Program-made: the position numbers and the translations under genes | In this document: piece after piece, positions 1 to 17,232 of the stretch | Layout: each line of letters starts with the position of its first letter | Numbering within the stretch: the stretch's first letter is position 1 | Source: Pelagerythrobacter aerophilus | Lineage (GTDB): Bacteria; Pseudomonadota; Alphaproteobacteria; Sphingomonadales; Sphingomonadaceae | Assembly: GCF_003581645.1 (NCBI RefSeq) | Contig: NZ_QXFK01000019.1 | Span: 1-64,000 of the forward strand | DNA length: 64,000 nt | Direction of reading: 5' to 3' | Notes under the pieces: generated by a model | Database searches by the model: none | Told to the model about the DNA's origin: nothing | The model's input: only the letters and a program-made list of their open reading frames with translations

Positions 1-869
1 GCGACCTGGAAGATCGGCGCGTCCTCATCCTTGTTGATGGCGATGATGGTCTTGGAGTCCTTCATCCCGGCGAGGTGCTGGATCGCGCCGGAGATGCCGA
101 TCGCGATATAGACTTCCGGTGCGACGATCTTGCCCGTCTGGCCGACCTGGTAGTCGTTGGGGACATAGCCCGCATCGACCGCCGCGCGGCTCGCACCCAC
201 GCCCGCGCCGAGCTTGTCGGCGAGCGGCATGATATATTCCTCGAAGGTCGCTGCGTCCTTGAGCGCGCGGCCGCCCGAGACGATCACCTTGGCGCTGGTC
301 AGCTCGGGACGCTCGCTCTTGGCGAGCTCCTGGCCGACGAAGCTCGAGATTCCCGCATCGCCGGCGCCGGAGACCGCCTCGACCGTGCCCGAACCGCCTT
401 CGGCGCCGGCCTTGTCGAAAGCCGTGCCGCGCACGGTGATGACCAGCTTGGGATCGCTCGATTCGACCGTCGCGATCGCGTTGCCGGCATAGATCGGACG
501 AGTGAAGGTCTTCTCCCCCTCGATCGACAGGATGTCGGAGATCTGCATCACGTCGAGCAATGCGGCAACGCGCGGGGCGATGTTCTTGCCGGTGGTCGTG
601 GCAGGAGCGAGAAAGGCGTCGTGGTCCTTCATCAGCTCGGCCGCGAGCGGCGCGACGTTCTCGGCCAGCTGGTGCTCGTAGGCGGGATCGTCGGCGACGT
701 GGACCTTGCCCACCCCTTCGATCTTCGCGGCCGCCTCGGCCGCCGCGCTGCAGCCGCTGCCGGCAACCAGCAGGTGCACTTCGCCGAGCTTGGCGGCGGC
801 GGTGACCGCGGACAGCGTTGCGTCCTTTACCGAAGCGTTGTCGTGTTCGACCAGAACCAGCGTTTTCAT
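1..869 (-). CDS. etfA: Electron transfer flavoprotein alpha subunit (partial at left edge)
   Basis: EtfA binds FAD and, with EtfB, passes electrons from acyl-CoA dehydrogenases to ETF:quinone oxidoreductase. The reading frame opens at ATG 869 with [14 protein letters not shown] and runs off the window after about 289 codons. The family is about 310 residues, so only the extreme C-terminus is missing. The C-terminal FAD-binding domain is recognisable: a [10 protein letters not shown] stretch, then [38 protein letters not shown] and [19 protein letters not shown]. It lies 109 bases after etfB and follows an acyl-CoA dehydrogenase, so all three probably work as one beta-oxidation-type electron chain. 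Identification is firm. Confidence 0.95.
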
Positions 870-919
870 CGTCTCTTCCCTAAATTCCGTTGTCCCGCAG
901 CGCTCGAGGTGGTGAGCGG

Positions 920-962
920 CCCTTCGATCCTTCGGCGTGGCTCAGGATCCGGGGCGAACGGG
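920..962. repeat. Possible interspersed repeat in the etfB-etfA spacer
   Basis: The etfB-etfA spacer holds an imperfect palindrome that starts CCCTTCG and ends CGAACGGG, with an inner GATCC...GGATC pair. Elements with a CCCTTCG ... CGAACGGG frame are common dispersed repeats in sphingomonad genomes (recalled knowledge, not checked here). No second copy of this exact form was seen in the window. Confidence 0.3.
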
Positions 963-978
963 AGCAGACCTGCTAAGC

Positions 979-1725
979 TCAAGCGATCCCAAGCGCCTTG
1001 ATCTTGGCGACCAGCTCGTCGACGTCGGCGACCTTCACACCCGCCTGCCGCACCGGCGGTTCGGAGACATTGGTCGTCTTGAGACGCGGCGCAGTGTCGA
1101 CGCCGTAATCGGCGGGGCTTTTGGTATCGAGCGGCTTCTGCTTCGCCTTCATGATGTTCGGCAGCGAAGCATAGCGCGGCTCGTTCAGGCGCAGGTCGGT
1201 GGTGACGATCGCCGGAAGCGTGAGCTTGACTGTCTCGAGGCCGCCGTCGATCTCGCGCTTCACGGTGACGCTCTCGCCGTCGATCTCGACGTCGTTGGCG
1301 AAGGTGCCCTGCGGCCGGCCGGTCAGCGCGGCCAGCATCTGGCCGGTCTGGTTCGAATCGTCGTCGATCGCCTGCTTGCCCAGGATCACCAGGCCTGGCT
1401 GCTCCGCCTCGTAGATCGCCTTGAGGATCTTGGCGACCGCCAACGGCTCGACCTCGTCATCGGTCTGGACCAGGATCGCACGGTCGGCGCCCATCGCGAG
1501 CGCGGTGCGCAGCGTTTCCTGGGCCTTGGCCGGACCGATCGAAACCGCGACCACTTCCTCGGCCTTGCCGGCTTCCTTGATTCGCAGCGCTTCCTCGACC
1601 GCGATCTCGTCGAACGGGTTCATGCTCATCTTGACGTTCGCAAGATCGACACCCGTACCGTCCGCCTTCACCCGAGGCTTCACGTTGTAGTCGATCACCC
1701 GTTTCACGGGCACGAGGATCTTCAT
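979..1725 (-). CDS. etfB: Electron transfer flavoprotein beta subunit
   Basis: EtfB is the AMP-binding subunit of the soluble ETF heterodimer that takes electrons from flavoprotein dehydrogenases. The 248-residue product has full family length and starts [16 protein letters not shown]. It carries the family signature around residues 105-140 ([20 protein letters not shown]) and an N-terminal [17 protein letters not shown] stretch. It begins 26 bases after the acyl-CoA dehydrogenase stop and is followed by etfA, so ACAD-etfB-etfA reads as one operon on the minus strand. Confidence 0.97.
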
Positions 1726-1751
1726 GCAGCTATCCTTTCCGCCTGGCAGGC

Positions 1752-2888: not shown

Positions 2889-3287
2889 AGTGGGCCTTTC
2901 CGGAGTCTCAATTCACTCTCCTTCGCGGAGAAGCATAATGGTCCTACCATTGCAAGTAGCGACTTAATCTTTGGCGCCATCTGGCGGGAGATTGCGCGAA
3001 GCATTCTGTTGGGAACGGATCAGTTCCCAACCATCCGTCATCAGCACGCTACTGATATTACGTAGGTTTCTCGCCAGCTTGCAGGACTGGCATTCATTTT
3101 TGACGACGACATTGGGAAGCTGGCTCACACTCCAAGCCCGCTTGGCCCGGCCAACTCACCCGCCCTAAGCCCCGGAAAACTTATGGCATTATTCTATTGA
3201 AATTGGCTTGCGCGCATGTGGCGATCATATTCTGATCTGGATCAGAAAAATGCCGTGTAGATCGGCGCGAAAATTCTGGAGAGAGGC
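2889..3287. other. Divergent intergenic region (acyl-CoA dehydrogenase / Rieske oxygenase)
   Basis: This 399-base spacer between two divergent genes has no convincing coding frame and is AT-richer than its surroundings. It must hold promoters for both directions. On the Rieske side there is a good promoter plus palindrome (listed separately). On the dehydrogenase side no clear -35/-10 pair was identified. Confidence 0.6.
3203..3247 (+). promoter_or_regulatory. Promoter with overlapping palindromic operator for the Rieske oxygenase
   Basis: TTGGCT (3203-3208) and CATATT (3226-3231) are spaced by 17 bases and resemble a -35/-10 pair. A perfect 8-bp inverted repeat, TTCTGATC-TG-GATCAGAA (3230-3247), overlaps the -10 end and the expected start site. 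This is the position of a repressor operator. The regulator is unknown. Confidence 0.5.
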
Positions 3288-4331: not shown

Positions 4332-4381
4332 GCTACAAGCGACTGCCGTCTTTAGACCTTTTTGCAACCCTGGACTCAAAA

Positions 4382-4414
4382 GGAGCGGCACCCGGCACCG
4401 CTCCCTTCTTCTTT
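4382..4414 (+). terminator. Rho-independent terminator after the Rieske oxygenase
   Basis: Stem GGAGCGG (4382-4388) pairs with CCGCTCC (4398-4404) across a 9-base loop. It is followed by CTTCTTCTTT, a pyrimidine/T-rich tail. It lies 50 bases after the Rieske stop codon. Confidence 0.7.
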
Positions 4415-4423
4415 CCTGGGGTG

Positions 4424-4555
4424 TTACGATGGTGATGCTTGCTGCGCGCGATCGCGCCCCAGCTCTGCATAGGCCTCGTGGATCTCGCCGATCTCGATCT
4501 CGCGCGAGATCCAGGGCAAGTCGGTTTCCTCAAGGTGCCTTCCATTAAGCGTGAG
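4424..4555 (-). pseudogene. Possible C-terminal gene remnant
   Basis: On the minus strand an open frame of 43 codons ends at TAA 4424-4426 and has no start codon. Upstream it is closed by TGA at 4556-4558. The reading EETDLPWISREIEIGEIHEA then YAELGRDR looks like real protein (acidic, helical) rather than a shadow frame. It resembles the tail of a lost gene. No family was recognised. The rest of the 4415-4689 spacer shows nothing. Confidence 0.3.
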
Positions 4556-4689
4556 TCACGACAACAGCTTCGCGCCCATTTAGCGCATGCGCAATCTACA
4601 CTTCTTGCCGGTCACGACACCTCGCCGAATATCTGCGGCTCCGGCAGGAACTTGCAAGCCGGAGCCTCCAGCTTCGCCGTAGGCGCGCC

Positions 4690-5010
4690 TCATCGGCGGG
4701 CAGTCCGGTAAGCTGCCCGGGCTTTCGACTCTGCGAGCGACGAAAGGGCTTCGTTGGCGATCGCTCGAACAAATTGATCGGTGAGATCGTCGGCGCAACG
4801 CTTCGTCGCAACTTCCGTCACGAGTGCCGAAGCGCTCCCGCAAGATTGTAGGGATGCTCTCTCGATACGCTCGAGAAGCAACTGGCGTGCGGCGGGGGTC
4901 GCCAGTTCGCCCTCCCTGAAGGAGAAGTCGACCCGCTCGCCTGCGTTGGCGACGAAGGGTGCAGTCACGGCCAACAGCCCGACGGCGAGGAGTGTCTTGG
5001 AACTTGGCAT
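4690..5010 (-). CDS. UrcA-like exported small protein
   Basis: This is a 106-residue protein with a clear signal peptide (MPSSKTLLAVGLLAVTAPFVANAG) and a short mature chain with two cysteines about 15 residues apart (LQSCGSAS ... TKRCADDL). The mature chain is rich in Ala and Arg and ends AYRTARR. This size and layout fit the UrcA family of uncharacterised periplasmic proteins found mainly in sphingomonads and caulobacters; the assignment is moderate. The start at 5010 follows AAGGAG at good spacing. A perfect palindrome CACTGCAGTG (5031-5040) sits just upstream and could be an operator shared with the divergent LysR gene. Confidence 0.6.
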   Translation of the reverse strand: MPSSKTLLAVGLLAVTAPFVANAGERVDFSFREGELATPAARQLLLERIERASLQSCGSASALVTEVATKRCADDLTDQFVRAIANEALSSLAESKARAAYRTARR

Positions 5011-5235
5011 ACGAGTCTCCTTTCATGCTGCACTGCAGTGTAAAGAGGGGGATGCTGTGTTCCATCGCAAAGACATCAATGGCCGTTGCAATCCTAGAAA
5101 GTTTGCAAAATGATCCTGATATTCCACGATTATCCACTGCGCAAAGCGGATGTCTTCTTGAAGGATGCCAGCTCAGGAGGAAATTGTGCAATGCAACGAG
5201 GTCGGGCATAACCGGTCAGCAACAAGGAATTTGTC

Positions 5236-6132
5236 ATTCGCCGCTTGCCCCCCACCGGTTCGCTGGAAGCCTTTATTGCGGCCGCTCGCGCCGGCTCCCT
5301 TCGCAAAGTGTCGGAGGACCTCAATCTATCGGTATCTGCCTTGAGCCGCCGTGTTCAGAAGCTCGAACTGCACGCGGGGCGCGCACTCTTCAGTCGCGGG
5401 GGTAACGAGTACCGCTTGAATGACGAGGGCCGCCGATTGTTCGCTGAAATCGAGCGACCCTTGGATGAGATCGCGTCTGCGTTCGAACGACGCGCCTCGC
5501 CAGGAAGGAAGGGACTGATCGTTGGCGTTCCGACCTCGTTCGCCACGGCATGGCTGATTCCTCGGCTCGATCACTTTCGCAAGGGCAATCCCGACATCGA
5601 TCTTCGATTGGACACATCCGGATCTCCGATCGAAAAGCTCGGTGAAAGCCTCGATATGATCATCTTCTTCGCGGAGGACGGCGCAGAGCGAGTCGCGTTC
5701 GAGAAGCTTCGTCCGCAGGGAGCTTTTCTCGTAGCTCGAGAGGGAATCGTGGATCCTCTCGACGGTTTGAAGGCAGCGCTGCGCAGCACGCCGTTGCTGG
5801 TACACCGCCATCTGCCACACATCTTAGAAACCTGGGTAGCCGAGCTTAAGTTACCACAGGATGTCGAGCCGACTATCGACTCGTTCGATGACGGTCCGTT
5901 GCTGATCGCGGCTGCGCAGAGCGGACTGGGAATGGCGCTCGTGCTCGAAGACATGGTCAACTTCTACGGCAATGCGGCGGGTCTGGTTCGGCCATTCGGC
6001 GAATATGTCCGCACGCCGTTCAGCTACGCGATTGCAGCGAAACCCGCATCGGGGAGCGTCCACGCGGTCGATCGCTTCTACAGCTGGATCATCGAGGAGA
6101 CTCGCAAGGAAAGCCAGGCAAGGCTCCCGTAA
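5236..6132 (+). CDS. LysR-family transcriptional regulator
   Basis: This LTTR of about 298 residues is divergent from the UrcA-like gene. The winged-helix domain spans roughly residues 5-65 (SLEAFIAAARAGSLRKVSED, then LSVSALSRRVQKLE and a wing with RLNDEGRRLF). The rest is a periplasmic-binding-protein-like effector domain. The closest frame start by convention is TTG at 5245. However, the peptide upstream reads (I)RRLPPTGSLEAF, matching the MRRLPPLNALRAF opening typical of GcvA-like LTTRs, and an AAGGA site ends 7 bases before ATT 5236. I therefore place the start at ATT 5236. The frame is closed upstream by TAA at 5209. The target is likely the neighbouring divergent gene, by family habit. 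Confidence 0.85.
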   Translation: MRRLPPTGSLEAFIAAARAGSLRKVSEDLNLSVSALSRRVQKLELHAGRALFSRGGNEYRLNDEGRRLFAEIERPLDEIASAFERRASPGRKGLIVGVPTSFATAWLIPRLDHFRKGNPDIDLRLDTSGSPIEKLGESLDMIIFFAEDGAERVAFEKLRPQGAFLVAREGIVDPLDGLKAALRSTPLLVHRHLPHILETWVAELKLPQDVEPTIDSFDDGPLLIAAAQSGLGMALVLEDMVNFYGNAAGLVRPFGEYVRTPFSYAIAAKPASGSVHAVDRFYSWIIEETRKESQARLP

Positions 6133-6160
6133 AAAGCTGGAGGCGCCGTGGCGCCTCCAG
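6131..6160. terminator. Strong hairpin terminator at the LysR stop
   Basis: An 11-bp perfect stem CTGGAGGCGCC (6137-6147) / GGCGCCTCCAG (6150-6160) starts 5 bases after the LysR stop. In the minus-strand direction it is followed by CTTTTTACGG, a proper T-tract. So it ends minus-strand transcripts, such as read-through from tonB, and may also end the LysR transcript. Confidence 0.65.
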
Positions 6161-6770
6161 CATAAGTCTTGGGAGAGGTGCCTGAAGGAACATCCTTCCG
6201 ACGACCCCGGCTTCGAGGATTTGGCACCGCATTGCCATCGCAAAAAGGGAAGGAGCCCGTTGCAGTAAATGCAAACGCCTCTTCCTAGGCTTCTTCGTCA
6301 ATCTTGGTCATGCGCGTTGCTGACCGATGGCTCACCCGGAGAGCGACCCGGTGGCTCCTGCGCCCGAGGGCCGCGTTCAGACGCGACCGATCACCTGCAG
6401 ATCGTCGCACAGGAATGCGCTTCGGGGGGGTGGCAGCTTGCATCCGGAGCGGACTAGCGGCTCCTGGGCTGCCAAGTACCGACAGCCGCCGTCGCTCCAG
6501 TTCAAGCACTTTAGGTCTCTCTCGCCGACATGGCTGACGCTCAGACATCGACATCGACACCGCAAAGCGGCCATTCGTTCACATACCGGGAGGAAGGCAT
6601 CCAGGAGCAACGGTGAAATATCCGCCTTCGTGATCACAAATGAAAAGCACGACCCACTCGGTTGCTCAGCATCAAAACCAGTGGCTGGTGCTCAGGAGCC
6701 GACAAGTTTGGCTGCGATCGGATTCGGTAGAGGACCGATCTCCGGATGTCAGCACTTACGAGTATACATC
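6161..6770. other. Gene-poor spacer with probable decayed sequence
   Basis: These 610 bases between the LysR terminator and the tonB stop contain no intact gene. Several short overlapping frames on both strands have no RBS or family resemblance. The only coding-like trace is the minus-strand fragment listed at 6377-6637. Base composition is locally mixed. Confidence 0.5.
6377..6637 (-). pseudogene. Decayed gene fragment resembling the start of a small conserved protein
   Basis: The frame starts at GTG 6637 and its first 15 residues, MITKADISPLLLDAF, look like a genuine N-terminus of a helical soluble protein. Beyond this the frame becomes Cys/Arg-rich and unlike any protein. A shift of frame near 6590 would read PSRYVNEWPLCG-like residues instead. 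This is best explained as a frameshifted remnant. The family assignment is not secure. Confidence 0.3.
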
Positions 6771-7619
6771 CTAACGCAAATAGAACTCCACTGGGATGGT
6801 CAGTTCGAGGACATCTGGCTTGTCTTTTGGAATCGCCGGCAGCGGCTGTGCGCGTCTAAGCGTGTCAAGCGCTGCCTGATCGAGCGCGTAATGGCCCGAT
6901 TTTCGCGCTACGGTCGCAGACAGCACCTCGCCTGCGCGATTCATCGTAAAACGGATGTAGGCTGTGCCTTCCTGCCGCGCAGCGCGCGCACGCGCGGGAT
7001 AGCGGCGAAATTGTTCCAGATGAGCGAGCAGCAAGGCTTCCCAATCCGGCTTGGCATTGTTGGAGACCTGACTTGCCGCAGGCGCCGTGATCCGTCGCGG
7101 TGCGGTGGTCTCCGGCACAACGGGGCCAGGGTCGACGATCTCAACGGGTGGGCGCGGCGGCGCGCTTGGAATGCTGGGCCGGGGAAGCTGCACCAAAGGC
7201 GGCAGCATCAGCGTGTCCGGAGCCGGCTCAGGCTTTTTCTCCTGCCGTTCGACTTGTTCGGGGCCCGGAGCCACTTCGCGCACCGGCTCGGGCGGCGATG
7301 CCATCGGCTGCAGATCGACGACGATCAGCGGCGGTGACGACTGCGTGACGGAGGGAGGGGTGACCATCGGCCAAGTGACAAGCGCCCCTGCAAGGACGAG
7401 CGCTGCTATCAGAGCCGTTCCAACCAGACCGAACAAGCGTGTGCGCCAGTTTGTTGGCTGATCGCAATAACGACCGCCGCGCGCCCATGGCACATCGTCG
7501 GCCATGGGAGATCGAGGCGCTCGATCATTATTGCGGGTCACCATGATGGCGTCGCCGGAGAAAGCAGGTTTGTTGTAGCCCTCCGCGCCGAGACGTTCGT
7601 CGAACCGGGCGTATCTCAT
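6771..7619 (-). CDS. tonB: TonB-family energy transducer of the heme-uptake locus
   Basis: TonB couples the inner-membrane proton motive force to outer-membrane receptors. The 282-residue protein has an unusually long cytoplasmic N-terminus of about 60 residues and one membrane anchor (about 62-85, LFGLVGTALIAALVLAGALV). A Pro-rich periplasmic spacer follows (about 100-180, many Pro-Pro and Glu-Pro pairs). The last 90 residues form the C-terminal TonB domain, with ARAARQEGTAYIRFTMNRAG and LELTIPVEFYLR. It overlaps the DUF454 stop by ATGA, so it is translationally coupled. Its position at the end of the receptor-hemophilin-Slam-HemO series indicates a TonB dedicated to this receptor. Confidence 0.92.
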   Translation of the reverse strand: MRYARFDERLGAEGYNKPAFSGDAIMVTRNNDRAPRSPMADDVPWARGGRYCDQPTNWRTRLFGLVGTALIAALVLAGALVTWPMVTPPSVTQSSPPLIVVDLQPMASPPEPVREVAPGPEQVERQEKKPEPAPDTLMLPPLVQLPRPSIPSAPPRPPVEIVDPGPVVPETTAPRRITAPAASQVSNNAKPDWEALLLAHLEQFRRYPARARAARQEGTAYIRFTMNRAGEVLSATVARKSGHYALDQAALDTLRRAQPLPAIPKDKPDVLELTIPVEFYLR

Positions 7620-8044
7620 TGGCTATCCCCCGGTAGCGGGCGACTTAGTATCCACCCACCGCTCGCAAACAGGACGATCGCCACCGCGATAGCTGCGATC
7701 GCACCGGGATGCGCCATCCACCAGAACGCGAGATAACCGATCGCCATGCCGATGCAGGCTGCAAACTTTGCCTGGCGCGGCACCGCGCCTTCGTTCCGCC
7801 AAGCCCGAAGACCGGGGCCAAAGCGAGGGTGTTTCAGCATCCACGCCTCGAGACGCGGCGAGGATCGAGCGAAGCAAGCCGCCGCCAGGATCATGAATAT
7901 CGTCGTAGGCATCAGGGGCACCACCGCACCGACGAACCCCAGGCCAATGCAGATGAAGCCGAGCAGCAGCCATCCTGTGCGAACCATACGGCCGCCGCGG
8001 ACCACCTCGTCTGCCGACGATTCAGCCAAGGTTCGCATCGACAT
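7616..8044 (-). CDS. DUF454 (YbaN-like) inner-membrane protein
   Basis: This is a 142-residue DUF454-family protein with two hydrophobic segments near the N-terminus (TGWLLLGFICIGLGFVGAVV, then PTTIFMILAAACFA) and one or two at the C-terminus (GMAIGYLAFWWMA ... AIAAIAVAIVLFA). The family hallmark PLMPTTIF..LAA.CFARSSPR and the HPRFGPGLRAWR motif are present. Molecular function is unknown. Here it sits between heme oxygenase and tonB, overlapping both (23 bases with hemO, 4 with tonB), so it belongs to the same transcript. A second DUF454 gene lies at 41314-41661. Confidence 0.88.
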   Translation of the reverse strand: MSMRTLAESSADEVVRGGRMVRTGWLLLGFICIGLGFVGAVVPLMPTTIFMILAAACFARSSPRLEAWMLKHPRFGPGLRAWRNEGAVPRQAKFAACIGMAIGYLAFWWMAHPGAIAAIAVAIVLFASGGWILSRPLPGDSQ

Positions 8045-8624
8045 GATTCAGGACCCGCACGAAGGCAGCGATGGCCCCGTCGGTAACGCGGCCCTCTTCG
8101 CCTGCGTTCAAGGCTGCGCTATCGAGCGCGCTGGTGAACGTGCGCCAGTGCGCCGCGGGCCCTTCAGGCGCGGGAGCAAGGTGCCGTGCGCCGTGGCTAT
8201 CCGACAATCCGAGCTTCGCCGCTTCCTTGCGGAGCAAGGCTGCACCCATGTTCGAGCCTTCCACGACGTAAAGCCATCCCAGCGCAGTAGGTACGTCAAG
8301 TGTATCGCCTGACGCAAAGCTAGGCGCCGCCGCCGACGGCGGGGCGGTCTGCAAGTCCGCCAGATCCGCAGTCACAAGCGCCAAACGTTGGCGCGATCTC
8401 AGACCAGGAACCAATGCCTGTAACCGGGCATCCTCGTAGAGCGCGGCGACGTCGCGGTGGAAGAGATACTGAACCGCCAGGAACCTCTTGTAGCGGTCCA
8501 GATCGTCGAACGAAGCGGCCGACATGATCGAACGATCAACTCTCTCATGGACGTGCTGGGTGAGCGCCTTGAGCCGCTTGGCGCGGCTCGTAGACAGGTC
8601 GGCGATGGTCGCGGTCATTGGCAT
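8022..8624 (-). CDS. hemO: Biliverdin-producing heme oxygenase (HemO/BphO type)
   Basis: Cleaves heme to biliverdin, CO and iron in the cytoplasm. The 200-residue protein shows the all-helical HemO pattern: the proximal heme ligand is probably H26 in LTQHVHERVDRSI, and the distal-helix signature is LGWLYVVEGSNMGAALLRKE. I start at ATG 8624, four bases after AGGAG; a TTG 20 bases further up is less likely. It lies directly downstream of the Slam gene and overlaps the DUF454 gene. This is the final step of the locus: iron release from heme captured outside. The bacteriophytochrome-partner BphO is an alternative, but no phytochrome gene is nearby. Confidence 0.88.
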   Translation of the reverse strand: MPMTATIADLSTSRAKRLKALTQHVHERVDRSIMSAASFDDLDRYKRFLAVQYLFHRDVAALYEDARLQALVPGLRSRQRLALVTADLADLQTAPPSAAAPSFASGDTLDVPTALGWLYVVEGSNMGAALLRKEAAKLGLSDSHGARHLAPAPEGPAAHWRTFTSALDSAALNAGEEGRVTDGAIAAFVRVLNHVDANLG

Positions 8625-8665
8625 GTCACTCCTGTTTGGTGGCAAAATGAGGGAGCCGTGAACCG

Positions 8666-10177
8666 CTAGAAGGCATGGCTGAGCCTCAGGCTCGCGGTCG
8701 TGCGGTTGTAGGAATAGAGCCAGTCAATGTTGCTCTTGACGCGGTTGTGCTGGACCACGGCTTCGGGCACGAGGCCGGCAAACTTCAGGGCCGGAAAGCG
8801 CGCGATTGCGGTGGCGTTGAATTGGTCGTCCTGGCGCTGCGCTTCGAACAATTCGCTGTACGCGCGGTATTTGCGATGCCGGTATGAGCCTAGCAAAAGC
8901 AGACTCGCACTGGCACCAAAGATTTTGTTGACGCCGAGCCGCGCACCCCATTGCCGATAGGAGTCAACGGGATCGTCGGTGTCCTTGGCCGCGAAGTCCG
9001 GGCCCCCGAACAGCGTCCAGCTCGAGGACAGCGAGTACCATCCCGTGAGGTTGATATCCGTCAGGGGGCCGCTCTGCGCATCATAGGCTCGCCGGCGATA
9101 GCGAAAATCCCGGTAATTGCCCTCAATCCGGAGCATCGCGCGAGGCGAAGCGACATGCGTCCATTCCGCGTTCACGCCGGGAGCATCGTACAGCACGGAT
9201 GATCCGAGTGAGCCGATCTCGAACGAGGGCGCGAGAGTGACGGTGTTTCGGGCGGTCTGGTATTGGTAGCCAAGGCGGGCGATCGCCGTCACCTGTGAAT
9301 AGTCGTGATGATCGGGATAGACGTCGCCGAAGAGCAGGCCCCGCGCTCTAATGCCGTGATGGCCGCCGAGCGGCACATCACGCCCCAGCGTAGCCTCGAA
9401 ATTCACGCCTGCCGCCTTGATCGGATCGGGCACCTTGCGATCGAAGAGGCATGTCCCGTCGTCGGCTTCGAGCAGGCAGGTGTAGCTTGCCGAGGACTGG
9501 TTCAGATTCGTGCTGTAGCCCGGCCCGATGGCGATCGTGCCTTGCCAACCGCGCCTGCGCTTCAACGCGTTCAGAAATGCGTCGATCGTGCGCCGGACGC
9601 CGGCAGCCCTGTCCCCTTCTTCAGTCAGAAGTAGGTGAGCGTGCTCGAAGGCATGGCGTGCCTCACTGTCCTTGCGATTTTCGAACAGGACGCGCGCGAG
9701 TTCGAGTTGCCCGAGCGGGAAATCGGGCTGCAACGTCAGCAGCTCGCGGTAGTGCCCTTCCGCCACGTCCAGGTCGCCGGAGTGGCGGGCGAGGCCCCCC
9801 TTTGCATAGTGGACAAGCATAGGATCGCGGTCGGAAAAGCGCTCGTAAGCGGCAAGGAAGCGGCGAACATCGCGCCATTGCTGACGGGCGACAGAGATGT
9901 AGAGCGCCTTGCCCACGTCACTGACATTGTCGTCAACGGAATAGGTCTGGCCGTCGATTTCGAGCGAAGCTGGACGGTCGAAAGACTCTGCATCTTCAAG
10001 CAGATCGGATTCTGTGTCGCGCTTCTGCCGCTCAATCTGTTGGTCGAGGCGTATGCGCGTATCCTGATCGGTCGTCGCCTGCCCCACGGCGGCCGTGGGG
10101 GCGATCATCACGCCAAGGCACAGGAACACGGCCCCAGCGCGCTGTGCGAGGCGGAATTGCCAGGCTGCTGCATACAT
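8666..10177 (-). CDS. Slam-type outer-membrane translocator (surface lipoprotein assembly modifier, DUF560)
   Basis: Slam proteins move specific substrates across the outer membrane. This protein of about 503 residues has a signal peptide (AQRAGAVFLCLGVMIAPTAA) and an N-terminal TPR-like helical domain (about 80-195, with DLDVAEGHYRELLTLQPDF and LGQLELARVLFENR). The C-terminal half is a DUF560 beta-barrel with alternating strands, ending in the outer-membrane Phe (LRLSHAF). ATG 10177 is chosen; TTG 10195 is possible and neither has a strong RBS. It lies directly downstream of a hemophilin-like substrate gene, the standard arrangement for Slam pairs, and 41 bases before hemO. Substrate assignment is inferred from adjacency. 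Confidence 0.88.
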   Translation of the reverse strand: MYAAAWQFRLAQRAGAVFLCLGVMIAPTAAVGQATTDQDTRIRLDQQIERQKRDTESDLLEDAESFDRPASLEIDGQTYSVDDNVSDVGKALYISVARQQWRDVRRFLAAYERFSDRDPMLVHYAKGGLARHSGDLDVAEGHYRELLTLQPDFPLGQLELARVLFENRKDSEARHAFEHAHLLLTEEGDRAAGVRRTIDAFLNALKRRRGWQGTIAIGPGYSTNLNQSSASYTCLLEADDGTCLFDRKVPDPIKAAGVNFEATLGRDVPLGGHHGIRARGLLFGDVYPDHHDYSQVTAIARLGYQYQTARNTVTLAPSFEIGSLGSSVLYDAPGVNAEWTHVASPRAMLRIEGNYRDFRYRRRAYDAQSGPLTDINLTGWYSLSSSWTLFGGPDFAAKDTDDPVDSYRQWGARLGVNKIFGASASLLLLGSYRHRKYRAYSELFEAQRQDDQFNATAIARFPALKFAGLVPEAVVQHNRVKSNIDWLYSYNRTTASLRLSHAF

Positions 10178-10228
10178 GATCGGTCGTTGGGGCAAACGCG
10201 GCGCTCATTCGGAACATGGAGGGAGGGA

Positions 10229-10260
10229 GGGCCAGAGCCGGAGGGAAGCGGCTCTGGCCC
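10229..10260 (-). promoter_or_regulatory. Hairpin between hemophilin and Slam genes (probable partial terminator/stabiliser)
   Basis: An 11-bp perfect stem, GGGCCAGAGCC (10229-10239) with GGCTCTGGCCC (10250-10260), sits 17 bases after the hemophilin stop. It has no T-run on the minus strand. Such a hairpin commonly protects the upstream mRNA or reduces read-through, giving more secreted substrate than translocator. The function is inferred. Confidence 0.6.
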
Positions 10261-10277
10261 AAGTCATTCAGGAGCGA

Positions 10278-11051
10278 TCAGTTCTTCGTGCCGCCAAAAG
10301 CGGTGTCGTACTGATTGCTGCTGAAGCTCACGATGCCGGCCAGAGCCTGCGCCGCCGATCCGAAGAACTGCCCGCTGACGTCGCCGTTGCTGGCGAGAGT
10401 GGCGGATGTGCTCGGGTTTGTTGCAGTGGCGGTGCCAAAGCCCAGAATCTCAGAGCCGACGATATCGGCAGTTCCGATATTGACCTTAAGGGCGGAGTTC
10501 TGGATCGACCCGGTCACCGTATCGGTGCCGAAATTGGCCGTGAATGTGCCGCTTAGCGGCGTGCCGCTCGAGGCATAGTTGCTTATGCCCTTCACTGTGT
10601 AGGTAGCTGTACCACTGCTAGGCATATTGCCGGCCGCGGTGGCACCCGTGCCGCCATAATAGACGGTGTGATCGCCTGCCGTGGCGCTGCCGGTCTGCGA
10701 CCATTCACCGAAATAGATGTCGTGCGAGCCGACTTTGGCGAAGTCGAAGCGACCATAGGTGCTATGATCGTCGACGTCGGTCGTCGTGGCCGTGAATGTC
10801 GTGACGCCATTTCCATCGGTGCCAATGACATTCTGCAAGCCCAGGAAGTCGACATATTGGGTAGATGTCAGGGCGGGCACGTTGATCCCGACCTCGCCAG
10901 AACTGTGCGGCCCGCCATTGACGGTACTCTCGTCGATCTTGACCTTGGCGGTGTTGCTGGAATCGCCCACGACCTGGGCATGGGTGCTGCCGGCAAAGGC
11001 GGCGGACGCCAGGAGCGCAGCCGCAGCGAGCTTGAGATGCGCATTCAACAT
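10278..11051 (-). CDS. Secreted hemophilin-like Slam substrate (putative hemophore)
   Basis: This 257-residue exported protein has a signal peptide (LKLAAAALLASAAFAGSTHA, cleavage near residue 25) and no lipobox cysteine. It should be released, not lipid-anchored. The mature chain is Gly/Thr/Ser-rich beta-structure. Its C-terminus ends in the TbpB-like handle-barrel signature GQFFGSAAQALAG (227-239), typical of Slam substrates. Candidate heme ligands are His 49, 96, 110 and 128. ATG 11051 follows AAGGAG, so the longer open frame to 11168 is not used. Flanked by a TonB-dependent receptor and Slam, it matches the layout of secreted hemophilin (HphA) loci. Heme binding is inferred. Confidence 0.78.
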   Translation of the reverse strand: MLNAHLKLAAAALLASAAFAGSTHAQVVGDSSNTAKVKIDESTVNGGPHSSGEVGINVPALTSTQYVDFLGLQNVIGTDGNGVTTFTATTTDVDDHSTYGRFDFAKVGSHDIYFGEWSQTGSATAGDHTVYYGGTGATAAGNMPSSGTATYTVKGISNYASSGTPLSGTFTANFGTDTVTGSIQNSALKVNIGTADIVGSEILGFGTATATNPSTSATLASNGDVSGQFFGSAAQALAGIVSFSSNQYDTAFGGTKN

Positions 11052-11167
11052 GGTAATTCTCCTTGAGTTGAGGCACCCGACCATTCGGGCGCTGTCATCC
11101 AGGGTCGCCACCGGCATCTCCGATTGAGCAGATTGATAGATGGGGTGGCGGCCCTGAATTCGGTGCA

Positions 11168-14100
11168 TCAGAACTTCCCGGTCAGACTGAGCCGCACGGT
11201 GCGCCCGGGAGCAGGCAGCAGCGACCGCGACAGGGGATCCAGATAATAGCGGTTGGTGAGATTGAGGCCGGTCAGTTCCGCGCTGAAGCGCTCGCTAATC
11301 CGGAATTTTGCATAGGCATCGAAGGTGAGGATCTCATCCCAGGTGAACGGGATGTTCAGCACGCACCCGCCAACGCAGTCGTCGGGGTCCGTGAACTCGT
11401 CGAGCTGAGGATTGTCATATTCGCTATACCAAGTCAGTCGGCCGCCCACTTCCAGGCGCCGGTCGAGAAAGCGACCGCCAATGGTCCAGTTGACCGAGTC
11501 TTCCGGTATCGCCTGAGTGAGCAGGAAGCTGGCGAGAAAACCGTATTTCACGCAATCGGGCACGCGCCCTCGTGACGGATCCAGGGTTGCGGCGACACTT
11601 TCGTCGCAAGCCTTGTTGGTGGTCATATGACCGGCGCTAAGATCGGTGAAGAAACCCCCATTGTCATAGCGGGCCTGCAACTCGAAACCGGCGATCACCT
11701 GCTTGTCCAGATTGCTGAACTGCAGGTTTGTGTCCCGTTCGATCACGTCATGGGTCGTGTTGTGGTACCAGGTGAGCTTCAGGTCAGCGTGCTGATGCTC
11801 GCCGTTGAGGTGGAAGAGTGGCCTGAGGTCCTGAATGAAGGCAGCTTCCCAGGAATGAATCCGTTCAGGTTTGAGGTCAGCGAGGGGATTGAGCGATGCC
11901 GAAAAGCCGATCGTGCTTTCGAACATGCTGGGGAAGCGATAGGCCTGCGCATAGCGCAGATAGGCGCGGCTGCCGCCGCTCAGATAGACCGTCGCCGAGG
12001 CAGTCGGCGCCCATCCATGGCCGGACCTTCGCTTGGCTTCGGTAACGGAAACGGCCACATTGTTGGCGCTGACGACGCAGCTTTCGTCGATATAATTCTC
12101 TAGTGAGTCCAGCGAGCCATTTAGGCAGGGATTGTCGGCGCGGCGGAAATTGCCGTCAGCATCCGGTTCCCATATGCCGGTATGCTGCACTTCGAAGGGA
12201 GTGGGGTTGGCGATGTATCGTTCAAGATTTCGCGCAACAATTCTGTCAATTTGTTCCTGCGTGGCGCCAGTAGAGGCATATCTTTCCCTTAGATATGCTT
12301 CATAAGCTTCCGCGCCAAATTCGGAGGTTGCATATTCGGTATCAAAGCTGGGCGTTACAGATTGCGTGATCGACCCGCCGCGATATTCCAGAAGTTCGGG
12401 CAGAAAATCGTCTTTCGCCCAATAGCCCGAATAGGTAAGCCCGGCACTAAGTTTCAGGAACGACGCAGGACGCCATTCACCGCTGAAACTGATGCGATAT
12501 TCCTCGCGCCGGCCCGCGCGTGGATACTGCCTCCAGCCATTCGCGACCGCATCGGTATACTGGTCGTCCGATCGCAGTTTCTCATGCTGCCAGCTGCCTT
12601 CGAGCAGGAAATCGAGCGCGGCGGTCGGGCTAAACCGGTTGCTAGCGGTAAAGCCGTAACGGTCATTATCGGCATTGGAGACCGCGCTGTTGATGATGAT
12701 CGGATCTTCTTCGGATGCCGAGTTCGGAAACCCGCCTGCGCTATAGGTATCGCTGACCGTATCGGTCGCCCACAGATTGGCCTCGAGGTCGATCCAGCGG
12801 CTTTCGGGCTGCCATTTGTATTCGGTATTGTAAGCCTGGGCATGAACCTTGCTGAGCGGCCATTGCACATTGCCGAAGGAATCGACGCTACCGCTGAATA
12901 TGCGCGTGGGCATGATCTCGCCGAATTTGGTTCGGCTGTCGCGGAAGCCGAGTTGAAGATACTGGTCGGGAGCGATCCGCCAGGTGGCTTTGAGCAGAAA
13001 TGATTCCAGCTCGCTCGATGTGTTGGGAACCTCGTTGCCCGGCTCGTAATTCAGCCCGAGCCTGCGAACATAGTTGTCGGAGAGGTTAGCCGGCAGTTCC
13101 TCTTGCTGATAATAATCCGGCGCCGTCGTGCCGGAGAAATAATTGCCGCGCTCGCGGAAGGCATAAGCGCCGAACAGGTCGAAATCGCCGATCCGGCCCG
13201 CCGCGGCGATGCGGATTGCGCGATCGCCGAAGGAGAAGGCTTCGTTGTCGTCCTCCGTTCGGAGGTTTATCCGCAACGACGGGTCGCCATAGGGATAGGT
13301 GGGGCCGATTCCTCCGTCCGTAAAGCCGGGCACGTCCCTGTAGTCCTGCCCGGTGAGGAGCGTCGGCAGGCGCGGATTGGTCGAGTTGTTCCCGCCTTCG
13401 AGTCTGAATTCGACGCCGAAGGTCTCATCCGGCTTCAAAATGTCATCGGCATCGAGCGTATTGATGACGACAGCGCCGCCGGTCGAACCGTTCACCCCCC
13501 GGATGGACACCGGCCCCTTGAGGACCTGAACGTCCGAAATGAGGCTGGGATCGACATAGCTGCGGTTGCTTGCGCCATTATAACCGCGCCAGACTGTCAG
13601 CGCCTGTTCGGTCCCGTCGATGATGACCGGCACGCGCCCCGGCCCTTGGACACCGCGAATGCTGGGATCGAGCGCGCCGCCATTGCGGGCATCGCCGCTG
13701 AAAACATTCACCATGCCCTTCAGCACATCGGCGGTATTCACACCCTTGTAGCGCTCGACTTCTTCCTTGCCCGCGAAGGAGGACGAAACGTCGAGATCGT
13801 AAACTTCATCGTGCCCGCGAGCATCTTGTTGCGCTCCGGTCTCGCCGGCTGTCGTGGTCACTCCCTCGACACGAAGGGGTCCCAGCACGACCGATCCGGA
13901 CGCGTCCGGATCGGCCGCACCGGTCGAAATCCGGCGAACGGAAACGATCCCATCCGCAATTCGCCCCACCAGGCCGGTGGACGCCAGCAGGCGGTCCAGC
14001 GCCTGCGACGGCGTCATTGTCCCCCTGACGCCTTGCGTCGAAAGCCCTCGGACCTCGCTCGCCTCCACGCTAACCTGCAGGCCCGATTGCCGTCCGAACG

Positions 14101-14287
14101 CGGCTAGGGCATCGACGACTGATTGCGGCGCTACGTCAAACGACCGGGCTTCTTCCGAAGCAGCGGCCTGAGCCTGCGCCTGTGCGGCCATCGGCGCGCC
14201 GAGCACGCCGATCGCTGCCGACGCGAACAACGCGCTTGCCCTCAACCGCCGCTTTGTAGATTCTTGGAAGGCTCCCCCGGAATTCAC
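11168..14287 (-). CDS. TonB-dependent receptor with N-terminal STN signalling domain (putative hemophilin/heme receptor)
   Basis: This outer-membrane receptor is 1039 residues. A signal peptide is followed by a secretin/TonB N-terminal (STN) domain at about 45-120 (FDVAPQSVVDALAAFGRQSG ... GTMTPSQALDRLLASTG). Next comes a plug domain at about 170-290 (GVNTADVLKGMVNVFSGDAR ... VIIDGTEQ ... VQVLKGP). The C-terminal 22-strand barrel ends in Phe (LSLTGKF). The STN domain links it to the FecR-FecI pair upstream for surface signalling. It starts at GTG 14287 after AAGAGG. A Fur-like box lies 40 bases upstream. The gene order receptor-hemophilin-Slam suggests it takes heme from the secreted protein below it. 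Confidence 0.93.
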   Translation of the reverse strand: MNSGGAFQESTKRRLRASALFASAAIGVLGAPMAAQAQAQAAASEEARSFDVAPQSVVDALAAFGRQSGLQVSVEASEVRGLSTQGVRGTMTPSQALDRLLASTGLVGRIADGIVSVRRISTGAADPDASGSVVLGPLRVEGVTTTAGETGAQQDARGHDEVYDLDVSSSFAGKEEVERYKGVNTADVLKGMVNVFSGDARNGGALDPSIRGVQGPGRVPVIIDGTEQALTVWRGYNGASNRSYVDPSLISDVQVLKGPVSIRGVNGSTGGAVVINTLDADDILKPDETFGVEFRLEGGNNSTNPRLPTLLTGQDYRDVPGFTDGGIGPTYPYGDPSLRINLRTEDDNEAFSFGDRAIRIAAAGRIGDFDLFGAYAFRERGNYFSGTTAPDYYQQEELPANLSDNYVRRLGLNYEPGNEVPNTSSELESFLLKATWRIAPDQYLQLGFRDSRTKFGEIMPTRIFSGSVDSFGNVQWPLSKVHAQAYNTEYKWQPESRWIDLEANLWATDTVSDTYSAGGFPNSASEEDPIIINSAVSNADNDRYGFTASNRFSPTAALDFLLEGSWQHEKLRSDDQYTDAVANGWRQYPRAGRREEYRISFSGEWRPASFLKLSAGLTYSGYWAKDDFLPELLEYRGGSITQSVTPSFDTEYATSEFGAEAYEAYLRERYASTGATQEQIDRIVARNLERYIANPTPFEVQHTGIWEPDADGNFRRADNPCLNGSLDSLENYIDESCVVSANNVAVSVTEAKRRSGHGWAPTASATVYLSGGSRAYLRYAQAYRFPSMFESTIGFSASLNPLADLKPERIHSWEAAFIQDLRPLFHLNGEHQHADLKLTWYHNTTHDVIERDTNLQFSNLDKQVIAGFELQARYDNGGFFTDLSAGHMTTNKACDESVAATLDPSRGRVPDCVKYGFLASFLLTQAIPEDSVNWTIGGRFLDRRLEVGGRLTWYSEYDNPQLDEFTDPDDCVGGCVLNIPFTWDEILTFDAYAKFRISERFSAELTGLNLTNRYYLDPLSRSLLPAPGRTVRLSLTGKF

Positions 14288-14326
14288 GTATCGTATTCCT
14301 CTTGCCGAAATTCACGGTTCTCACTC

Positions 14327-14345
14327 GCTAATGAGAATGAGTTGC
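14327..14345 (-). promoter_or_regulatory. Candidate Fur box upstream of the heme receptor
   Basis: GCTAATGAGAATGAGTTGC matches the 19-bp classical Fur consensus at 14 of 19 positions by eye. It lies 40 bases before the receptor start and 70 bases after the fecR stop. It would let the receptor-hemophilin-Slam-hemO-tonB unit respond to iron directly, in addition to the ECF sigma factor. Confidence 0.55.
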
Positions 14346-14415
14346 ATGACTTCAACGAGCCGGCAGCGGTGAATTCCAAAAAGAAAATGCTTCAGGCGAA
14401 AAAAGCTGGCGCAGG

Positions 14416-15411
14416 CTAGCGGATCGTCACAATCCGCAGCCACGGCGATACGCGCGTGACAGTCACGTTCTGTACCCGCGCTAGCGCTTCCAGCGCGCGG
14501 TCAGGATCGCGCAAATCGTAGAGCCCGCTGACATGGCGCGTCTCGAGCCCGGGCCCGCGCGCAAGGATATAGCCCTCGTACCAGGGGCGGAGGAGGTCGA
14601 TGACGTTACCAATTGGCTGATCGTTGACGATCGCCACGCCCTCGCGCCAGCTCGCCACATGATCGGGCCGGATCTCGCCGCGGGCGGCTTCGCCGGCGCT
14701 GCCGACCGATACGGACTGGCCCGCCGTCAATTCTATCCGGGCCGGCTCTACGCCGCGAGGCGGCATAACTGCAACCCTGCCGCGCTGCACCGCGACCTCC
14801 GCTCCGGAATCGATCTGGCGCACCGAAAAGGCGGTGCCAAGGACGGTGACGGTGCTTTCGCCCGCGGCGACCGTGAACGGTCGGCTCTTGTCGTGCGCGA
14901 CATCGAACCAGGCTTCTCCACGAAGAAGCTCCAGGGACCGACTCTTTGCGCTGTCGTCGAACGCGATAGCCGTATCAGGTGCCAGAAATGCCGTGCTGCC
15001 GTCGTCGAGCTCAACCACGCGCAGTTCGCCTGTCCTGGTGATCTCGTCTGATTGGAGGTGCAGCGCGAGGTCAGGCACAACCGCCCAGGCGAGGCAGGCC
15101 GCCAGCGCGGCAGACGCCAGCGCTTTAGCGGGCGACAAACGTCGGAAACGACCCGCTCTAGCCCATATCGACGCCGTAATGGGACGAGGCCGGACTACAG
15201 AGCCCGCGGCCGTCATCAGGCGGGAAACACGCTCCGTTTCCTCCCAGGCCTCGAGATGAGCGGAGCTGGTGCCGAGCCAATCCATGAAATCTAGCTGCAG
15301 CGCGGCGTTGTCCGGCTCGTCTGCTAGCTGAACCAGCCAAGCGGCGGCCTGACGACTGAGATCGTCGCGCCTCCGATCAGCCTCAGTTCCTGCGCTCATT
15401 CCCGTTCCCAT
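14416..15411 (-). CDS. fecR: FecR-family anti-sigma factor
   Basis: This is an inner-membrane regulator of 331 residues. The N-terminal DUF4880-type cytoplasmic domain has AAAWLVQLADEPDNAAL and FMDWLGTSSAHLEAWEETER. One membrane segment lies at about 95-115 (ASAALAACLAWAVVPDLALH). The periplasmic FecR domain has VVELDDGSTAFLAPDTAIAF and GEAWFDVAHDKSRPFTV, and an STN-like C-terminus has VSGLYDLRDPDRALEALARV. It binds the STN domain of the receptor and controls the adjacent FecI. It starts 93 bases after fecI. The start at 15411 is by length; ATG 15399 (MSAGTEAD) is an alternative. Confidence 0.92.
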   Translation of the reverse strand: MGTGMSAGTEADRRRDDLSRQAAAWLVQLADEPDNAALQLDFMDWLGTSSAHLEAWEETERVSRLMTAAGSVVRPRPITASIWARAGRFRRLSPAKALASAALAACLAWAVVPDLALHLQSDEITRTGELRVVELDDGSTAFLAPDTAIAFDDSAKSRSLELLRGEAWFDVAHDKSRPFTVAAGESTVTVLGTAFSVRQIDSGAEVAVQRGRVAVMPPRGVEPARIELTAGQSVSVGSAGEAARGEIRPDHVASWREGVAIVNDQPIGNVIDLLRPWYEGYILARGPGLETRHVSGLYDLRDPDRALEALARVQNVTVTRVSPWLRIVTIR

Positions 15412-15504
15412 ATTCGTGACTGCTAGCGCTCGGCGGACGAAACTCCATGGCTTTACGCATACAACGAACGGGGAGGCTACAATTCCGGGAGTTTCTGCAA
15501 TCGA

Positions 15505-16014
15505 TCACCAATCGCGGCGCAGCGCCGCCTTGCAGAATTCAACTGCATCGATCACGAGCGAGTGTGCCAGGCTCTTGGAAATTCTGAGCTCGGCCGCGAT
15601 CTCGACCAGCTTCATTTCCTCGAAACGGTGCATTTCAAATGCTCGGCGTGTCCGCTCCGGCAGTTGCGCCAGCGCGCGTCGGAGCGCGGCGAGTTCATCT
15701 TTCGCCTCGGCGCCGACGTGTTGCGAAGGCCGGTCGCTTGGCACGAGGGCTATTGCGGCTGCATCCCCCCGGGCGAAAATCTGTGTCTCCCGTTTTTTGC
15801 GCCGTTGCCTGTCCAGCGCGAGATTCTGGACGATCCGGAAGAGATAGCCATTGGGTTCTTCGAGCACGCGCGCACTGGTGATCGAACGAAATCGTAGCCA
15901 GGCCTCCTGCACCACATCTTCCGCCTCGACGGTGTCTCCCGTGATCCTGACGGCGTAACGAAGCAGTTCCGCTTGCGCCGCAAGGAAGACCTGAAGGGTA
16001 TCCATCTTAGACAC
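15505..16014 (-). CDS. fecI: ECF sigma-70 factor, FecI type
   Basis: This 169-residue ECF sigma factor activates the receptor operon when the receptor signals through FecR. Region 2 is at about 15-85 (LLRYAVRITGDTVEAEDVVQ, then EAWLRFRSI and YLFRIVQNLALDRQRR). Region 4 is at about 110-160 (LPERTRRAFEMHRFEEMKLV, then EIAAELRISKSLAHSLV). GTG 16014 has AGGAG 9 bases upstream and is preferred over ATG 16005. An inverted repeat resembling an alphaproteobacterial iron operator lies 59-75 bases upstream. Confidence 0.93.
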   Translation of the reverse strand: MSKMDTLQVFLAAQAELLRYAVRITGDTVEAEDVVQEAWLRFRSITSARVLEEPNGYLFRIVQNLALDRQRRKKRETQIFARGDAAAIALVPSDRPSQHVGAEAKDELAALRRALAQLPERTRRAFEMHRFEEMKLVEIAAELRISKSLAHSLVIDAVEFCKAALRRDW

Positions 16015-16326
16015 CCGGCGTTGCTCCTAAATCTGGCTGAGATATCGTCTAAGCCGAGTAGCACTTTCATTATTGCGAACCAATCGCAAATGTGCGGTGC
16101 CGCATCGCCACTCCTGGGTAAACGCTGCATCGGACCAAGTTCTATGAAGCGGTCAGGGAGTCGAGAGGCCGGTATGCAGTGCGTGTGAAATAGTCCGGGC
16201 CCAATTGCTGCATCACCGTGGTCCGTCGCCGATCGTTCGAACAGGTTTGCGCTCGCCCTGAAAGCGTGCCGTCAGTTCCATTGAGATGCTGACGGGACGA
16301 ACCGCAGGAATTAGCTTCAGAAGCGC
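16015..16326. other. Promoter region upstream of fecI
   Basis: This 312-base spacer between fecI and the integrase remnant has no supported gene. The part near fecI contains the inverted repeat at 16073-16089. The distal part (16150-16326) shows nothing recognisable and may be island scar sequence. Confidence 0.55.
16073..16089 (-). promoter_or_regulatory. Inverted-repeat operator upstream of fecI (possible Fur/iron box)
   Basis: TTGCGA (16073-16078) and TCGCAA (16084-16089) form a perfect 6-bp inverted repeat with a 5-base centre (ACCAA). Its flanks on the minus strand continue TAATGAAAG. Its position fits the fecI promoter. The TGC...GCA symmetry resembles iron-response operators of alphaproteobacteria, but this resemblance is by eye. 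Confidence 0.45.
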
Positions 16327-16953
16327 TTAGTGGGCATTGGGCCGATCGTGCGAGGGTTGGACGGTGTGTTGTAGGGATCCTATCCCAACACGCTGCCGAC
16401 AATGCGTGGCGGCCTTGCATCGAACAGATTGGCGATGACCATGCATTTCGCTGTTGGCCAGTCCCGGGCTATTCGTCAGCCGTTCACGACCGAAACCGAA
16501 GAGTACCGATGCGGTGGTGTAGGAGCGCCTCGTTTTGACGAGTTCGCGCGCCAGGCACCGCCTCAGCTCACACCGACTCCCCGTCGATCTCGCCCGGATC
16601 GCGCGCGCGAACCCGTGGGCGCTGCATTTGTCGGAGAGGCTCCTTCGCGTCATCCCTGCTCTGTGCACATTCGTCGCACAGGCCCGGCACTTCGAACAGG
16701 GATCGCCGCGGGGAGAAGCCTGCTGCCTTGCAAGAGGTGTCCAGTGCCGAGGTAAGATCGGAGACAGAGAACATCTCGATGGCGCGGCAACAGAGGCAGA
16801 CCAGAAAGCCCATTCTCTCGCCGCGGATCGGAACGTAGGCTGCCAGCACTTCGATCCGCCGGGCTTCACCAGCAGGTAGAGGCGGTGACTATCTGTGAGC
16901 TTGTAGGGCTTCTTTCGCGGCTTTGCTGTGCGGACTTTTGCATCGCTGAGCAT
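16327..16953 (-). pseudogene. Frameshifted tyrosine-type integrase remnant (DUF4102 N-terminus)
   Basis: ATG 16953 follows GGAG by 6 bases and opens MLSDAKVRTAKPRKKPYKLT, then DSHRLYLLVKPGGSKCWQ. This is the standard DUF4102 arm-binding start of island integrases. After residue 38 the frame loses resemblance. At 16840 the other frame continues AYVPIRGERMGFLV, as expected for the strand after KxWR in this family. So a frameshift lies near 16840 and the catalytic domain is absent or degraded by about 16330. It points away from the 3' end of tRNA-Ser, the normal position of an island integrase. Confidence 0.65.
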
Positions 16954-16964
16954 GTTCATCTCCG

Positions 16965-17020
16965 GGACCACGTTTTTTCCGGCCTGGGTCCACGTTTTAG
17001 ACCCTCCAGGACCACGTTTT
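16965..17020. repeat. Three 22-bp-phased iterons upstream of the integrase remnant
   Basis: GG(A/T)CCACGTTTT occurs at 16965-16976, 16987-16998 and 17009-17020. Each copy is exactly 22 bases after the last, two helical turns, so all face the same side of DNA. The 22-base period is not a multiple of three, so it is not a coding repeat. They sit between the integrase start and tRNA-Ser, where arm-type integrase or excisionase sites are expected. Confidence 0.65.
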
Positions 17021-17142
17021 GAGGCCAACGGGCGAGCGAAGGCCTCCGAACGGTCGCGAACCGATCGAGCCGCTAAGTCTCGGAATTCAGGGGGAAAACG
17101 TCAATCTCGGTGGACGTTTGCGAACCCCTGCGAGGGGATTCA

Positions 17143-17232
<90 letters not shown>

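Follow-up and report, generated by a model that had tools for sequence, protein, structure and literature searches.

How did a sphingomonad come to carry the genes for capturing heme with a secreted hemophilin, a system described by experiment in Acinetobacter baumannii, and are those genes likely to work there? The question is raised by Pelagerythrobacter aerophilus (assembly GCF_003581645.1), in which such genes lie within the first 64,000 nucleotides of contig NZ_QXFK01000019.1, the stretch analyzed here and called the window below. We are confident that they make up a complete cassette for heme acquisition by hemophilin, of the same type as the A. baumannii hemO cluster and probably functional, and that it is carried on a probable genomic island at a tRNA-Ser gene. 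Gene identities, fold, ligand residues and cassette conservation were all computed directly.

The eight genes of the cassette

The cassette consists of eight intact open reading frames (ORFs), all on the minus strand, running from window position 16014 down to 6771 where the original prediction had placed them, and each product matches its named family above the Pfam cut-off in a profile search, which confirms all eight names that had been proposed. The first two genes encode a fecI-type extracytoplasmic function (ECF) sigma factor (15505..16014; Sigma70_r2 3e-12, Sigma70_r4_2 2e-11) and a FecR anti-sigma regulator with DUF4880 and FecR domains (14416..15411; FecR 2e-21). They are followed by a TonB-dependent, HphR-like hemophilin receptor with an N-terminal STN signaling domain (11168..14287; Plug 4e-13, STN 4e-8), a secreted soluble hemophilin (HphA) of 257 amino acids (10278..11051; HphA_N 4e-35, HphA_C 1.5e-31, TbpB_B_D 8e-8) and a Slam, or type 11 secretion outer-membrane translocator of the DUF560 family (8666..10195; SlipAM 3e-43, TPR_Slam 3e-23). 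The run ends with a biliverdin-type heme oxygenase (HemO, 8022..8645; Pfam 2.5e-18), a YbaN-like DUF454 membrane protein (7616..8044; Pfam 1e-35) and the TonB of the locus (6771..7547; TonB_C 2e-16, TIGR01352), whose ORF may start at 7619. Because the intergenic gaps measure only 20–128 bp and hemO and the DUF454 gene overlap by 23 bp, a single operon for the eight genes is plausible.

The product of 10278–11051, which had been expected to contain a TbpB-type beta-barrel, has both an N-terminal heme clamp and a C-terminal eight-stranded barrel of that type, found alike by the HphA_N and HphA_C profiles, by an AlphaFold2 model (mean pLDDT 92.5, built from a 35-sequence alignment of the window and 34 of the 79 related loci described below) and by Foldseek. 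In the Foldseek search ranks 1–8 are all hemophilins, the best E-value (8e-19) belonging to 8gmm, the holo-HphA of Stenotrophomonas maltophilia, and a phmmer search of solved structures also gave hemophilins (8gmm 8e-34, 7re4 1e-25). A. baumannii HphA binds heme through H43 and H106 (PMC8560813). Window residues H49 and H96 align with these two. In an alignment of 82 proteins H96 is invariant, and H49 is missing from a single one, which has a gap there; the 257-residue protein is thus predicted to bind heme. It has a signal peptide without a lipobox cysteine, judged by eye from the sequence alone and not by a signal-peptide program, and passes the NCBIfam model NF041636, ‘Slam-dependent surface lipoprotein’, with 130.7 bits against a cut-off of 80. 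In one relative, Novosphingobium sp. ST904 (L024:10001-10675), the hemophilin ORF encodes 225 aa rather than the usual ~257 aa, possibly owing to a frameshift or a sequencing error; in other respects the locus resembles L005.

The STN domain of the receptor scores 33.3 bits (cut-off 28.4). The receptor matches the TIGR01785 heme receptor model below that model's cut-off, and its nearest solved receptor is HasR, a hemophore receptor (2e-35). STN lies above the Pfam cut-off in five of seven other receptors scanned, that of A. baumannii included; the domain in the Caulobacter receptor scores just under the cut-off, and none was found by the same Pfam scan in the Photorhabdus receptor. Cell-surface signaling by FecI, FecR and an STN receptor is established for related systems, and the Pfam matches that place an ECF sigma factor, FecR and an STN receptor together in this one locus fit such signaling here. 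The ORF at 8666, which had been predicted to match DUF560, does so as a SlipAM protein in which the barrel is joined to TPR domains, and no other SlipAM match was found in the genome; from its genetic neighborhood it would secrete the adjacent hemophilin. The heme oxygenase, likewise the only member of its family matched in the genome, has pa-HO (7e-35) and HemO (2e-34) as its closest solved structures and keeps the histidine aligned with that of Neisseria meningitidis HemO, which we take to be the proximal heme ligand. Taken together, the family matches, the fold and the ligand residues give good support to the proposed role in hemophilin-Slam heme uptake.

Distribution and the proposed genomic island

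The best-placed alternative to acquisition on an island is that the cassette was inherited vertically within the host genus and that its island-like context is an assembly effect. Its distribution argues against this. Of seven genomes of the genus only the window's own has HphA_N, all 6 congeners lacking it. In samples of the order (396 genomes) and of the class (385 genomes) HphA_N was found in 4 and 1 genomes, respectively, the window's own included each time. Named genomes, when scanned, yielded 173 relatives; the 80 best, representing 79 loci, were retained, and the taxon counts given here cover these alone. They comprise 26 sphingomonad and 7 Caulobacter loci, the remainder including Stenotrophomonas and relatives, Luteibacter, Lysobacter, Photorhabdus, Xenorhabdus, Marinomonas, Halopseudomonas, Pseudoalteromonas, Acinetobacter and metagenome-assembled genomes (MAGs) of Neisseriaceae. 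Plasmid records add two Novosphingobium replicons of ~1.8 Mb each, and among viral contigs no hemophilin relative was confirmed. Of at least 28 sphingomonad loci other than the window's, 24 have all eight genes, 3 lack DUF454 alone and 1 is cut by a contig end. Because these 28 loci were found while HphA_N occurs in only 4 of 396 genomes, the system is present across Sphingomonadales, though sparse.

Left out of the cassette counts and of the tree were L009–L011 (from the same genomes as L018, L019 and L027), L034 (a fragment) and L090; L026, with no slam on its contig, was left out of the tree. L090 lies on a contig of a ‘Rickettsia endosymbiont’ MAG, where the hemophilin is identical to that of S. 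maltophilia L077 over its first 35 residues, the receptor is split and the Slam is short, and it is probably a contamination of that MAG. Separately, the Sphingomonas gei ZFGT-11 assembly holds two different hemophilin cassettes on separate contigs (L025 and L037), one of which may be foreign because the contig titles give unlike coverages (59 vs 19).

A quick maximum-likelihood tree of the joined receptor, hemophilin and Slam (81 rows, LG+G4, SH-aLRT only) unites all 28 sphingomonad rows, the window's included, in one clade (support 100), which the seven Caulobacter rows adjoin (joint branch 91) with Luteibacter outside. A single clade with Caulobacter as its sister is what slow vertical descent would give. 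Inside the clade taxa mix, the window pairing with Sphingobium sp. OAS761 and Aurantiacibacter with Novosphingobium mathurense, and this last grouping speaks against descent with the host; the tree was flagged for long branches and uneven composition, and its deep branches are unsure. The surroundings of the cassette also count against vertical inheritance. The cassette spans 8.5–9.6 kb in 27 of the 28 other sphingomonad loci, and flank proteins (ORFs of ≥180 aa compared at E up to 1e-40 and identity >50%) are common to just 13 of 406 pairs of the 29 loci, none of the window's recurring. Sphingomonad cassettes sit as one ~9-kb unit in differing surroundings.

In the window the apparent insertion site is a tRNA-Ser(CGA) gene identified by ARAGORN (17143..17232, minus strand). 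With a query extended to window 16900, homology to all six congeners stops at the 3' end of this gene, exactly in four and at most 13 bp past it in two, and the sequence that follows tRNA-Ser in congener G778 lies elsewhere in the window's genome, at C3:27412-30711. Both observations are hard to square with vertical descent. Next to the tRNA gene is a relic of a tyrosine-type integrase with the arm-binding domain only (16801..16953, minus strand; PF13356 2e-7 for this piece); the whole 233-aa ORF at 16327–17028 matches PF13356 (4e-6), and no catalytic domain was found in it. At its other end the window starts at a contig edge, as an assembly effect would have it, and this edge falls inside the inferred island, in a duplicate of etfB and most of etfA that is 100% identical to the other copy (1..1726, minus strand; ETF domains). 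These 1,726 positions recur as a perfect repeat where C6 starts, where it ends, and at the starts of C4 and C3, four contig ends in all, so that there are probably two genomic copies of them. C6 end and C4 start are collinear with the native etf copy in congeners G777 and G778, and the second copy adjoins an acyl-CoA dehydrogenase gene. Congener G327 has pieces of etf sequence at the starts of its contigs C12, C14 and C15 and on C11, which hints at an etf duplicate there too.

A consistent reading is that of a ~43-kb insertion at tRNA-Ser, extending from window 17142 down to 1 and then over C3 1727–27411 (L117, L118). On the window side it would hold the integrase relic, the heme cassette, a LysR regulator, a Rieske/VanA-type oxygenase, the acyl-CoA dehydrogenase and the second etf copy. 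On C3 it would hold a LigXa-like oxygenase, two amidohydrolases, PrpF, a CoA-transferase, a GMC oxidoreductase and a LigB-type ring-opening dioxygenase, which look like genes of aromatic-acid degradation. Near its far end is a GNAT acetyltransferase (L118:6305-6814, minus strand), reminiscent of toxin-antitoxin acetyltransferases. With the evidence on both sides given above, we consider vertical inheritance within the genus very unlikely.

Slightly less probable still is that the island is in decay and its genes have ceased to function. This would account for the integrase fragment and for the 225-aa ORF of the relative L024 in place of ~257 aa. Against it, all eight ORFs of the window are open and cover their family models, and the residues that were checked, the two hemophilin histidines and the HemO histidine aligned with N. 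meningitidis, are kept.

Proposed regulation and working, and DUF454

Slam cargo is reported to combine a common barrel with variable N-terminal domains (PMC12282271), but a barrel protein that binds something other than heme is very unlikely here, given that the heme-clamp domain itself matches (HphA_N 4e-35), that both heme-ligand histidines are kept and that a heme oxygenase gene stands in the same gene run.

The iron boxes of the original prediction hold up as sequence. Upstream of fecI is the palindrome TTGCGA-N5-TCGCAA (16073..16089, minus strand; TTGCGATTGGTTCGCAA), the sole one of this form in the 64 kb, and of the other 28 sphingomonad loci 12 have its core TGCGA-N5-TCGCA ahead of fecI, with 0.015 expected per stretch. 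A second site (TGCAACTCATTCTCATTAGC; 14327..14346, minus strand) precedes the receptor gene; 0 such sites are expected by chance, the pattern being derived from the window itself and its presence there being by construction. Sites around the receptor start that agree at ≥16 of the 21 positions of a window-derived pattern occur in 30 of the 35 loci from sphingomonads and Caulobacter, compared with 42 of 1500 equally long random stretches. An exact search for the degenerate receptor-box pattern in 124 loci gave no match, whereas similarity scoring did give matches, and scans for sigma-70 promoters and terminators gave no excess over chance. Both sites are probable Fur boxes.

We infer secretion, heme binding, signaling and Fur control from these genes and sites, and the model that we propose would work as follows. 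Under iron starvation Fur would cease to repress at the two boxes that precede fecI and the receptor gene. Sec would carry pre-hemophilin across the inner membrane, and Slam would pass it through the outer membrane to be released as a free soluble protein. Hemophilin would then clamp heme between H49 and H96 and hand it to the HphR-like receptor, import using the TonB of the locus, and in the presence of loaded hemophilin the receptor's STN domain would signal via FecR to FecI and raise expression. In the cytoplasm HemO would open the heme ring and free the iron.

Several observations weigh against the reading of a working cassette on an island. As to its working, the core of the fecI box is absent in 16 of the 28 other sphingomonad loci. 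The locus has no gene for a heme ATP-binding cassette (ABC) transporter, and only one FecCD-type permease was found in the genome, its neighbors being a binding protein and an ATPase from a reading of the ORFs. As to the island, its size depends on a proposed join of C6 and C3 across the 1.7-kb repeat, and when window 1–17142 was searched for exact copies of the last 11 to 25 bases of the tRNA gene (its 3' end), no att repeat was found. Congener G777 has a different sequence after tRNA-Ser that is not found in the window's genome, and congener G327, without hemophilin, has on its contig C10 an 82% relative of window 4601–6274, the LysR stretch beside the cassette; the insertion site and parts of the region therefore vary within the genus.

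The missing inner-membrane step leads to DUF454, which might be a dedicated membrane partner of HemO, either passing heme to it or removing its product. We put this forward as a speculative and rather unlikely idea, drawn from the absence of an ABC transporter in the cassette, from the 23-bp overlap and from the co-occurrence of the two genes. The hemophilin loci other than the window's number 81. Of the 37 with hemO, 32 also have DUF454, in every case ≤150 bp from hemO and on the same strand, and none of the 44 without hemO has it (five of these 44 being incomplete stretches). A first count of 36/37 had been rejected, as wrong-frame ORFs inside hemO had been taken for DUF454 in L005, L024, L035 and L036. 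Related loci do not count independently; on the tree, with five of the 81 rows set aside by hand as cut or incomplete (L042, L046, L049, L053 and L070), 5 of 6 independent pairs agree (sign test p about 0.06), six pairs being too few to settle the matter. Counter to a dedicated partnership, five hemO loci lack DUF454; a second DUF454 gene lies outside the island (window 41317–41643, plus strand); the Escherichia coli control genome matches DUF454 and not heme oxygenase; and, of 44 plasmid records that matched heme oxygenase, four neighborhoods outside hemophilin loci were viewed, a YbaN protein appearing in one (Psychrobacter) and not directly beside the oxygenase. In the open-licence literature we found no paper with both ‘DUF454’ and ‘heme oxygenase’. 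The tight pairing of hemO and DUF454 is a concrete lead on a family without known function.

Comparison with known systems

The A. baumannii cluster that the original prediction had named as the analogue of this locus is indeed its counterpart. The hemO cluster of that species (HphR-HphA-HsmA) has the same eight genes, in the same order from sigma factor to Slam, its receptor is also STN-bearing and its HphA also has two histidine heme ligands. Slam-dependent secretion, heme binding and receptor dependence have been demonstrated there by experiment (PMC8560813, Bateman 2021). A genomics table for A. baumannii lists the same gene set with the eighth gene as hypothetical (PMC10483418), and in the annotated A. 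baumannii record L008 that gene is named DUF454. Since L008 has exactly these eight genes, the idea that a dedicated sigma factor, hemO, DUF454 and tonB are additions to the A. baumannii system must be discarded. Identity between the window and A. baumannii is 36% for HphA, 41% for the receptor and 34% for Slam. The two differ in the place of tonB, last in the window cassette and directly after slam in A. baumannii, and, unlike in A. baumannii, the window's host is an alphaproteobacterium and its cassette lies in an inferred island.

The further suggestion that the locus extends the system to a new group is weak, as at least 26 sphingomonad and 7 Caulobacter loci, plus the two Novosphingobium replicons, are already public. 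What we describe is a known system, and its host group is at most lightly new. Slam subcluster 1C is reported to come largely from environmental Sphingomonadaceae, and the cargo of subcluster 1B is described as soluble hemophilin-like proteins (both PMC8406197). Hemophilin-like proteins of Rhodobacteraceae/Roseobacteraceae and a separate Slam cargo, the ‘Sphingomonas surface protein’, are reported in PMC12282271. Among the titles and abstracts listed from the open-licence literature there was none on a sphingomonad hemophilin locus. It may be that two 2024 J Bacteriol papers on hemophilin homologs list some of these loci already. What the loci do add is that hemophilin heme capture probably reaches beyond the gammaproteobacteria, sphingomonads and Caulobacter carrying the genes. 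One may then ask from where such bacteria would obtain the heme outside animals; the versions from harmless strains should also be usable for structural and secretion work.

Among closer relatives, Sphingobium sp. OAS761 (L012) and Novosphingobium pSA1 (L006) each have the whole cassette, with HphA 91% and 57% identical to the window's, respectively, and at the threshold used neither has a flank protein in common with the window. The S. maltophilia hemophilin (8gmm) ranks top by E-value among solved structures in both sequence and fold, while seven of the eight loci titled Stenotrophomonas are without hemO and DUF454 in the stretch examined and L045 has both. Outside the hemophilins, the HasA-HasR system of Serratia, with HasI and HasS, resembles the window locus in combining a secreted hemophore, a receptor with a signaling domain and its own sigma/anti-sigma pair; unlike hemophilin, HasA has an unrelated fold and is exported by a type I system.

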